From contig NC_080423.1 in the NCBI RefSeq assembly GCF_029873635.1, positions 99,820,991 through 99,884,990 of the forward strand: 64,000 nucleotides of DNA, in the 5' to 3' direction. Every line of letters begins with the position of its first letter. Position 1 is the first letter of the stretch. Shown here piece after piece: positions 38,591 to 53,285 of the stretch. Below the pieces are notes generated by a model. That model did not search any database and was not told the origin of the DNA. It saw nothing but the letters and a program-made list of their open reading frames with translations. Origin of the DNA: Malania oleifera. Its lineage: Eukaryota; Streptophyta; Magnoliopsida; Santalales; Ximeniaceae. The translations under genes and the position numbers were made by a program.

Positions 38591-38808
38591 CAAATTAATT
38601 TGTCATGCCTTCCAAATGCTTGGCGGTCCATAAAATTAGCACACCTTTTGAGTGGAGAAGCCATCACAAAAGCTTTAATCCACCTGTTATATCGTCGACC
38701 AAATTAATTTGTCATGCCTTCCAAATGCTTGGCAGTTCATAAAATTAGCACACCCTTTGAGTGGAGAAGCCATCACAAAAGCTTTAATCCACCTGTTACA
38801 TCGTCGAC
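38591..38808 (-). repeat. 109-bp tandem duplication of PTH2 last exon plus 3' UTR
   Basis: Two copies of a 109-bp unit (38591-38699 and 38700-38808), differing at only a few positions. The right copy contains most of the real last exon ([12 protein letters not shown] and stop). The left copy lies downstream on the minus strand, in the 3' UTR, and repeats this coding end as LVDDITGGLKLL plus stop. It has no splice acceptor of its own and is a duplicated exon remnant. Confidence 0.9.
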
Positions 38809-50800: not shown

Positions 50801-53285
50801 CCAAGGTCTTGGCTAACATATTAAAGGAAGTGATGGTAAAGGCATGGGACTATATGCCAAAATGCCTTTATGGAGGATCGTCAAATCCTTGATGTGGCCT
50901 GTTCCTAATGGAGTAGACAATGATAAACTGAAGGAAGGCTGTAACAGGTTGATTTGTAAAATGGACAAGGTGAAAGCAGAATATCACGTCTCTCTGGAGA
51001 TCTTTTTCCATGTTTGAAAAAGGTGGGTTTGGGCCTGGGCGGAGGAAATGGATCAGAAAGTGCAAATCTTCACCCATGTTTTCCATTCTCATTTAATGGC
51101 ACCTTATAGTTTTTTCAATTTTCAAATCCTCAAGAATTTAGAGGCAAGGGGGTCTCCTTTCCCCTTTCCTTCCCATTTCATGATTGAAGTTCTCAGTAAG
51201 ATGTTATAATACCTTCATTTACGGGTTTTCAGTGGGTAGGAGCATGTAAGTAGGCACGTTGCAGTGGTGGGATTGAAGGTGAATTTGAGGAAGGGTGAGC
51301 TGCATACACATTCAGAAAGAGGTACGGAAGGAATTCATAGTCAAAGCAATCGGGTGCAAGGTCGGAAAACTCCACCCTACCTTTGGGTCTTCCTCCTGGA
51401 GCAAAATTCAGGCAGAAGGATATATGTGATTGAGTGGCAGACAGGTTTGAAAAAAAAGCTAGCGAGATGGAAAAGAATTTTCCTAGGGGATCAATCTCAT
51501 CAAAAACACTATCCAACTGCACTGTGCATTCTCTGTCTTTCTTTCATGCACATTAAACAATGGCAAAAAAGGATTGGAGAACATCCAGAAGAGATACCTC
51601 TGAGGTAGTACAGAGGCAGTTTTCACAGAGTGGTGAAATGAAACTTTGTCAAAGAGGCTGGGGTTCAGCAGCCATGTTGACTTAAATAAAGCCTTACTGA
51701 GTAAATGGCTTTGGAATTTATGGCTGAGAAGGATCAAAATTTGAAGAAGGTGCCGGAGGCTAAATATGAACAGAAGCATAATGGATGGATGACAAGTCAC
51801 AGCGGCCTAGAGGATCACGAGATGAAAGCATGAAAAAAATGTAAGTATTGAATTGCTTCCTTGACCAGATCTGTTCTTCACCGTTTGAGGTTAGAAGGGG
51901 TGAATTGATTCTTTTCTCGAAAGATTGCTGGTGCGGGGATATCCCTCTTAAGACACAACTCCCAGATCTGTTTCACCTGGCAAGGAGCAGGGAAGTGTTG
52001 GTTAACTCTAATTATTATAACTCTGCCAGACGGAGTGTGTGGAATGTGACTTAGGAGACTCAAGATTGCAAATGAAGAGTTTATTTTTTTTTTCTTTTTG
52101 ACTTCTTATATGAGAGATTGGTCATCCAAGGTAGGAAGGATGTAGTAAGATGGAAGAGACCTAGGAGTGGCACATTTTAAGTGAAATCCTTCAATCAGAT
52201 TTTTTTTCCCTTTTTGACCGAAATCCTTCAATCAGATCATTAACAATGAGAATTGCAGAAGTGGCCTGAACATTTTCCCCTGGAAGTTATTTGGAAGACT
52301 TCAGCTCCTCCCAAAATTGCTCTCACATGGGAACCATTGTGAAATTTTGACTGTGCATAACCTTCAGAAAAGGGGCTTTACAATGGTCAATCACTGCTTC
52401 TGAATAAAAAAGCACCTTGTATTTCTAGAATTTAGGTCAATAAGCAGCATTTTGTTAATACTCAGGCTGGCCTTGATTCTGTTGATTCTTTCTCCTTGTA
52501 ATCTTTGTTTTTGTGCTAGGACTGCACCCTCTTTAGTGAATATTGTTCTTTGGCTATCAAAAAAAGGGAGGGAAAGTATTGAATTGATCACGTTACACAA
52601 TCATCATCCCCAAAAAAATAGCTTATAGTGAGAATCATTCTGTTGTGGCATATCACAACCCAAAATAAAGGAAAAAGAAAAAACTTCTATTATTGTTGTG
52701 TTTCTTAAATGACATATAATTAGTTATTTTGTCAAACATAAAACCAGACAACCAATTCCGTAAGTTCAAATCAGAAATTCAACTCAATTGGCAAGTGGCG
52801 CCCCAACTTTTTCAGGTTGGTATCCAAAACAAACAGACACTCCACAAAAATAAAGAGAAAAAAGAAAGGGCACATCTCAAATTCAAGGCATGAAGAAATT
52901 AGTAACTACCTGCATTGGGCGGCAATTTTTCCTTTACCCATTTTTAAGTCATTTCTCACAACCAAAACCTTTAGAAATAAGACAGAAAAAAAGAGAGACT
53001 CAATTTCCGCTTCACTTAGAGAGGTAGAGAGAGAGAAAGAGAGAGAGAGAGAGAGGGAGTGAGGAAAAAGCAAACCATTTTAAAATCTTCAAGAATGTCA
53101 GCTAGCTTCTCAATCTCAAGAGGCTGCTTGAGCCGACTCTTATTGTTGTTACCTTCAACTGCTGCAGTGCTTTTAGCTATTTTAGGTGAAACAAATAAGC
53201 AAGCAGGATAACGTGTACCAATGTAATATCCCAAAGCTAGGCATCCAGCCCCAACAAGAATGGCACTAAGCCATGTCAGATCCAT
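38773..53285 (-). CDS. PTH2: Peptidyl-tRNA hydrolase 2 (PTH2/Bit1 family)
   Basis: Seven minus-strand exons join in phase across GT-AG introns into 181 aa: 53285-53076, 52968-52910, 50530-50471, 50368-50299, 48533-48464, 40539-40513 and 38822-38773. PTH2 cleaves the ester bond of peptidyl-tRNA released from stalled ribosomes, recycling tRNA. Residues ~4-23 form a hydrophobic membrane anchor, as in the mitochondrial PTH2 of animals and plants. A Lys/Glu-rich linker leads into the PTH2 fold: [19 protein letters not shown] (71-89), [21 protein letters not shown], then [19 protein letters not shown] (148-166) and the invariant C-terminus [13 protein letters not shown]. Charged motifs and length fit the family. 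Introns are 107, 2379, 102, 1765, 7924 and 1690 bp; the long ones hold LINEs, SINEs, a gypsy element and a long-TIR element. An alternative start Met lies one codon upstream (53288). The sequence before it looks like a splice acceptor (tttggttttag), so a 5' UTR exon may lie further upstream. Confidence 0.9.
38973..40466. mobile_element. Long-TIR DNA element in PTH2 intron 6 (Mutator-like, possible gene capture)
   Basis: The first ~465 bp (38973-39438) match the reverse complement of the last ~500 bp (39970-40466), giving very long imperfect TIRs. Each TIR contains three copies of a self-complementary module of the type aaccgacttt..aaagttggtt and a GC-rich tandem repeat (caccctcaccacc..catcaacacc). 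The unique centre (39440-39970) is not AT-rich filler: one frame reads [18 protein letters not shown], resembling a leucine-rich repeat, and another reads LVYEYMG, resembling a receptor-kinase motif. That suggests captured host gene pieces, but the matches are short. It ends 46 bp from PTH2 exon 6. Confidence 0.7.
40690..40791 (+). mobile_element. tRNA-derived SINE in PTH2 intron 5
   Basis: An A-box-like 'ttgatttaagtggtacta' is followed ~45 bp later by a B-box-like 'caggttcagatctc' and a poly-A tail. Short and decayed. Confidence 0.5.
40870..41560 (+). mobile_element. L1-type LINE fragment in PTH2 intron 5
   Basis: Translated pieces match the region after the reverse transcriptase of plant L1 ORF2: [31 protein letters not shown], a [13 protein letters not shown] segment and a [18 protein letters not shown] region. 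Frames are interrupted. It lies antisense to PTH2 and ends where the RTE LINE begins. Confidence 0.65.
41570..42498 (+). mobile_element. RTE-type LINE, left part (interrupted by gypsy)
   Basis: Translated pieces follow the order of a plant RTE reverse transcriptase: [36 protein letters not shown], the catalytic FADD-type motif (near 42035-42060, reading FCLQMM in the adjacent frame), [11 protein letters not shown], then an open frame with [17 protein letters not shown] and MRILKWKSF. Frames are decayed. It is cut at the catgg target site by the gypsy element, and its continuation resumes at 46056. Confidence 0.75.
42504..42893 (+). repeat. 5' LTR of the gypsy element
   Basis: 390 bp, tgttagggtg...catgaca, followed by the primer-binding site. 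Confidence 0.92.
45661..46050 (+). repeat. 3' LTR of the gypsy element
   Basis: 390 bp, about 11 differences from the 5' LTR. Preceded by a purine-rich tract (gagcgggggaggatg) near 45647. Confidence 0.92.
46056..46346 (+). mobile_element. RTE-type LINE, right part after the gypsy insertion
   Basis: Resumes the LINE reading interrupted at 42498. Next to the target site the residues continue as AFAQDKVRK, then [13 protein letters not shown], the position of the RRP..APVR segment of RTE tails, and the 3' UTR 'ccaaccccacctagtggagct' with a gttgttgtg tail. This confirms that the gypsy element split one LINE. Confidence 0.75.
46347..46970. other. Intron 5 spacer, nothing clear
   Basis: A minus-strand open frame of 88 aa (46693-46959) looks non-random ([17 protein letters not shown]) but I cannot assign it. 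It could be a LINE ORF1 scrap. Not a PTH2 exon. Confidence 0.35.
46975..47597. mobile_element. TIR element with cgaaattt repeats in PTH2 intron 5
   Basis: The ends ggtcttaaatttc / gaaatttaagacc are inverted repeats, and both subterminal regions are full of acggaaatttcgat-type motifs in opposite orientation. The interior is AT-rich and non-coding. It has the look of a hAT-like or Mutator-like MITE; no target duplication fixed. Confidence 0.55.
47600..48463. other. Intron 5 sequence before exon 5, with a 59-bp tandem duplication
   Basis: No transposon recognised. Two copies of a 59-bp unit lie at 48141-48199 and 48200-48258. Confidence 0.6.
48141..48258. repeat. 59-bp tandem duplication
   Basis: Two units starting agaatcatcttccca, with few differences. 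Confidence 0.85.
48752..48985. repeat. 117-bp tandem duplication in PTH2 intron 4
   Basis: Two units starting tagattgataagaaagaaag at 48752 and 48869, about 90% alike. Confidence 0.88.
49110..49315 (-). mobile_element. Au-type SINE in PTH2 intron 4
   Basis: On the minus strand it reads like the widespread plant Au SINE: an A-box-like ggatcaatggtaagg, a B-box-like cacggggttgagtcc, then the diagnostic aaacagcctccttgca, aaggctgcgtaca and cgaccctcccc blocks. The 3' tail has diverged. It lies in the same orientation as PTH2. Confidence 0.88.
50621..50718. repeat. 49-bp tandem duplication in PTH2 intron 2
   Basis: Two near-identical units starting tagaacatattgtgaactg at 50621 and 50670, directly next to the L1 LINE. 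Confidence 0.88.
50719..52575 (+). mobile_element. L1-type LINE in PTH2 intron 2 (5'-truncated)
   Basis: Translated pieces follow plant L1 ORF2 in order: [19 protein letters not shown] and [11 protein letters not shown] (reverse transcriptase start), a [14 protein letters not shown] segment, [15 protein letters not shown] and [36 protein letters not shown], then [14 protein letters not shown] and an A-rich end (aaaaaaaggg near 52560). The frame is heavily decayed and the 5' end is missing. It is antisense to PTH2. Confidence 0.75.
52765..52835 (+). mobile_element. Possible SINE scrap in PTH2 intron 2
   Basis: An A-box-like 'ctcaattggcaagtgg' and a B-box-like 'caggttggtatccaa' at SINE spacing. 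Weak. Confidence 0.3.

Follow-up and report, generated by a model that had tools for sequence, protein, structure and literature searches.

The closest described counterparts of the gene analysed here are plant PTH2 genes of the Arabidopsis At5g16870 type, in which an N-terminal hydrophobic stretch is likewise combined with a PTH2 domain, a placing taken from a table entry and not from an alignment. At5g16870 ('putative PTH2') is entered in a proteome table of the chloroplast envelope with a single helical membrane span (PMC3565376), yeast Pth2 is described as embedded in the membrane at TOM (PMC13328587), and a further paper deals with At4g32900 (PMC9605376). In their titles and abstract openings, none of the publications on plant PTH2 concerns exon-intron structure.

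Introns expanded by transposable elements are described from Chloranthus, Picea and grape, where LTR retrotransposons and other repeats lie within long introns and the coding parts are unchanged. Introns in an ortholog set average 3.7 kb in Chloranthus as against 153 bp in Arabidopsis, according to the same source, and transposable elements are stated to make up 80% of long introns in grape (PMC4108047). Transposable elements make up 75% of the 1.5-Gb assembly of Malania oleifera and LTR elements 68%; its genes have 5.7 exons on average (PMC10199050), and about 1,500 Gypsy Del-clade elements overlap genes in this species.

The window, by which we mean the whole 64-kb stretch of Malania DNA that was analysed, has a GC content of 36.0%, compared with 36.1% published for the assembly (PMC10199050). 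We are confident that it holds an ordinary PTH2 gene of the membrane-anchored plant type, the M. oleifera ortholog; the differences noted from other genes of this kind are its intron lengths and its duplicated exon fragments.

The PTH2 gene model and its protein

The gene lies on the minus strand and is divided into seven coding exons:

53076..53288, minus strand: coding exon 1, 213 nt, encoding the membrane anchor and linker and carrying two adjacent in-frame ATGs
52910..52968, minus strand: exon 2, 59 nt
50471..50530, minus strand: exon 3, 60 nt
50369..50470, minus strand: intron 3, 102 nt, a multiple of three with no in-frame stop
50299..50368, minus strand: exon 4, 70 nt
48464..48533, minus strand: exon 5, 70 nt
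40540..48463, minus strand: intron 5, 7,924 nt
40513..40539, minus strand: exon 6, the 27-nt microexon
38773..38822, minus strand: exon 7 including the stop codon, 50 nt

Introns 1 to 6 measure 107, 2379, 102, 1765, 7924 and 1690 nt (mean about 2.3 kb), all six with GT-AG boundaries and consistent phases. Splicing yields a coding sequence of 549 nt with stop, encoding 182 amino acids and taking up 3.8% of the 14,516-bp span (53288-38773, minus strand); intron 3, if retained, would add 34 residues, for a form of 216, and leave the frame open. The earlier note on this DNA had proposed seven minus-strand exons, joined in phase at GT-AG junctions into a complete PTH2, and this model proves right nearly to the base. 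Its coding length of 546 bp counts from the second in-frame ATG, at 53285; the NCBI protein begins one ATG earlier, at 53288.

Of 3,590 matching proteins, the best is LOC131159693 isoform X3 ('uncharacterized protein') from Malania oleifera, 182 residues long and 100% identical. Since the translation coincides with a known protein at every position from end to end, a chance origin is of no concern. The gene, which had been called hidden, is already annotated at NCBI under the name "uncharacterized", and the label X3 implies that several isoforms have been modelled there. The Pfam PTH2 domain (PF01981) covers residues 69-182 and profile positions 1-115 of 115, scoring 143.8 bits against a cut-off of 23. 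Alignment to the nearest solved structure, 1q7s (bit1; E 3.6e-38), which we take to be human PTRH2, reveals the motifs shared with solved PTH2, and the motifs common to the two proteins presumably hold the PTH2 active site.

Among the matches listed (the best 120 of 3,590), the 119 other proteins are 69-87% identical, and mean column identity across a 12-protein plant alignment is 83%. Within the N-terminal hydrophobic stretch, D3, W6, A9, G13-C16, A18, G20 and Y21 are invariant in all 12 aligned proteins, and at the columns uniform in the 11 other plant proteins the Malania protein departs only once, with I140 in place of L. Its natural reading is that of a membrane-bound peptidyl-tRNA hydrolase, a protein that would be anchored through its N-terminal helix in an organellar or some other membrane and would hydrolyse peptidyl-tRNA. 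The likely location is suggested by other species, which disagree, one pointing to the chloroplast envelope and the other to mitochondrial TOM.

Intronic transposons and the length of the gene

Two elements could be delimited within the introns:

42504..46050, plus strand: Ty3/gypsy-type element in intron 5, antisense to PTH2, with 390-nt LTRs at 42504-42893 and 45661-46050
38980..40456, no strand assigned: inverted-repeat element in intron 6, with an arm similarity of about 82% and ends placed by alignment

The gypsy sequence that had been reported in the gene is confirmed in intron 5 by its domains (Pfam matches to Retrotrans_gag, Integrase_H2C2 and SH3_Tf2-1), by its LTR pair, which differs at 11 sites, and by a target-site duplication, CCATG, on each flank. 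LTR divergence, converted with the rate of the Malania genome paper (1.3e-8 per site per year), dates the insertion to about 1.1 My ago. The element is 3.5 kb in all, with an internal part of about 2.8 kb; averages for Gypsy clades are given as 4.8-11.6 kb, and the copy, falling below them, has presumably been partly deleted.

A TIR element had likewise been described close to exon 6, and there is indeed an element between exons 6 and 7 with arms 82% alike, although its distance from exon 6 is 56 bp and not 46, and no clear target duplication was seen at its ends. The claim of LINE sequence fares less well: plus-strand translations in introns 2 and 5 contain stretches that look like reverse transcriptase and may be of LINE origin, whereas Pfam found no match in any of eight plus-strand pieces of these introns. 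Another piece of intron 5 (46696-47028, minus strand) had no Pfam match either. We take a sequence in intron 4 to be SINE-like. Most likely, all these transposons are spliced out and leave the protein unaffected.

The gene would owe its length to transposons that entered introns already present; for the gypsy copy this would have been about 1 My ago. The earlier note had considered a 546-bp coding sequence spread over 14.5 kb unusual. Set beside Arabidopsis intron lengths, the Malania gene would look extreme, but with the introns of other plants as the yardstick, a 549-bp coding sequence across 14.5 kb is nothing out of the ordinary in a plant genome that is large and rich in LTR elements. Long introns filled with retrotransposons have been described for other large plant genomes, and we see no difference in kind from those of Chloranthus, Picea and grape.

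Elsewhere in the window, open frames at 29898-32735 on the plus strand look like exons of a 2-oxoglutarate/Fe(II) dioxygenase gene, with matches to DIOX_N and to 2OG-FeII_Oxy. An open frame at 35126-35677 (plus strand) matches the viral movement-protein family PF01107 (E 3.9e-12) and is, we assume, an endogenous pararetrovirus fragment. Retrotransposon pieces occur at 11296-13176 on the minus strand (RNase H and protease) and at 14886-19302 on the plus strand (gag_pre-integrs, integrase and RVT_2). At 60217-60531 (plus strand) there is a weak DUF4371 match of 26.4 bits, below the cut-off of 32.1, possibly, in our estimation, the remnant of a hAT-type transposase. Neither Rfam (gathering threshold) nor tRNA scanning of the whole window gave a match.

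Intron positions and the 27-nt microexon

Irregularities in the protein models of relatives give an indication of where their introns lie. We collected internal indels past residue 60 in the 119 listed relatives (of 3,590 matches), leaving aside the variable linker before that residue; such an indirect test sees errors only, intron positions being deduced from irregular protein models and not from DNA. Seven of the eight indels sit within 1.4 residues of a Malania exon junction, and five of the eight flank exon 6:

Exon 5/6 junction: P0037 (Rhododendron), P0087 and P0118 (Camellia), P0110 (Centaurea)
Exon 6/7 junction: P0112 (Populus)
Exon 1/2 junction: P0070 (Nyssa)
Exon 3/4 junction: P0114 (Solanum)
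Away from any junction: P0120

The indel of P0110 was placed at 156, compared with a junction at 157.33, and can be slid to 157. The extra residues in P0037 and P0110 start with SEL, resembling read-through of the exon 5 donor, and the corresponding donor in the window (AAgtgagttg), if read through, would give the same start. Counting against the pattern, the models P0057 and P0070 diverge after DDVTG, that is, within exon 7 and off every junction.

These positions suggest that the two introns flanking the 27-nt exon, 5 and 6, are probably common to several eudicot orders, and that the intron positions of PTH2 are old, perhaps ancestral. The microexon itself probably misleads gene predictors, as has been published for smaller microexons. 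As a separate observation, the public plant PTH2 models P0037, P0087, P0110, P0112 and P0118 carry insertions or wrong residues at the microexon junctions, which are likely annotation errors. Measured against the survey of plant microexons by Yu et al. 2022 (PMC8831610), exon 6 falls within the 30-nt and 51-nt definitions quoted there and is longer than the 1-15 nt class that the survey catalogues; the word 'peptidyl' does not occur in the main text of that paper.

Partial exon copies beside the gene

Upstream of PTH2, the stretch 54274-53880 is a repeat of exon 1 together with intron 1 and the greater part of exon 2, and further fragments lie on either side of the gene:

54067..54274, minus strand: exon 1 copy without either ATG, matching at 207 of 208 bases, the sole change creating TAA at 54081-54079
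53880..53972, minus strand: truncated exon-2 copy B with intron-1 flank, carrying unrelated sequence in place of its final 8 nt and donor
54419..54515, minus strand: exon-2 copy A, truncated and older, with about 94% identity to exon 2 plus flank
38591..38808, minus strand: 109-bp tandem duplication (38700-38808 against 38591-38699, 4 differences) of the exon 7 end and 3' flank

Both the partial exon 1-2 duplication and the 109-bp duplication at exon 7 had been overlooked in the earlier reading, as had the stop-free intron 3. The exon 1 copy keeps its donor and is directly preceded by AG. A stretch of about 420 bp that precedes the real exon 1 is absent before the copy, and GGA bounds the missing stretch on either side, so that the loss looks like one left by a microhomology deletion. 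The right parts of exon-2 copies A and B consist of sequence unrelated to the gene that is about 95% alike in the two, which implies that the array was built in at least two steps. A single crossover was considered as the source of the upstream copies and rejected, since copy B resembles exon 2 in its left part at about 99% identity but copy A in its right part at only about 95%; judged by these identities, two events or gene conversion would have been needed.

Local direct repeats are frequent in this part of the window. Eleven families (copies within 1.5 kb of each other and at least 45 nt long) were found across it, two of them microsatellites; the other nine all lie in 38591-59588 and none in 1-38590, though three of the nine overlap and one lies inside the inverted-repeat element, so that they are not independent.

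There is a small chance that the duplicated exons are an assembly artefact, arising from two haplotypes or from collapsed repeats. The 99.5% identity of the exon 1 copies would fit such an origin, but the flanks differ, the upstream copy lacks both ATGs and the stretch of about 420 bp found ahead of the real exon 1, and a third exon-2 fragment has diverged by about 6%. The duplications are real in the sequence, yet they look like dead by-products. The partial duplication of EXOV in Arabidopsis (PMC8824575) likewise produced a young copy of part of a gene; the Malania copy differs in that it adjoins its parent, has no start, carries a premature stop and gives no sign of a new gene.

It is very unlikely that PTH2 itself is a remnant, silenced by its transposon load while a second, compact PTH2 elsewhere does the job. 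Plants can carry several PTH2 genes, and the broken exon copies adjoin this one. Against this, all its splice sites and its entire reading frame are intact, I140 is the single departure from otherwise uniform columns, and the label 'isoform X3' implies several NCBI-modelled isoforms. Moreover, P0001 is the only match named Malania among the best 120 of 3,590, many of which carry no species name.

We return to an ordinary, intact PTH2 gene, beside which local recombination plus a microhomology deletion would have produced dead partial copies of exons 1 and 2 upstream and, in the 3' flank, a repeat of the terminal part of exon 7.

The protein models hint at one further feature of the 5' end. Eighteen relatives have models that extend 10 residues or more ahead of D3. 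Seven of them (P0004, P0011, P0025, P0034, P0039, P0070 and P0115) show a Q seven residues before the two start-region residues, and the other 11 do not; in the window, MQ lies nine residues ahead of ATGATG. This Q could, tentatively, be read as the acceptor (CAG) of a 5'-UTR intron, at about 53316 in the window, and given such an intron the broken exon copies may possibly lie in the first intron of PTH2. That the exon 1-exon 2 copy is sometimes spliced from there as a start-less decoy lowering or tuning PTH2 output is a very unlikely reading: the near-identical exon 1 copy with its retained donor, the AG ahead of it and the Q read as an acceptor would allow it, but the copy has no start codon and contains a stop, its exon 2 part has no donor, the Q is missing from 11 of 18 extended models, and no non-coding leader exon could be placed. 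Were it true, a very young local duplication would tune the level of a translation-rescue enzyme.

For PTH2 as a family, the locus leaves the known picture unchanged, and it marks a probably conserved microexon as a spot where the gene models of other species err. For Malania, it shows in a clean case how the reading frame of a small plant gene containing a 27-nt exon is preserved under a heavy load of intronic transposons.
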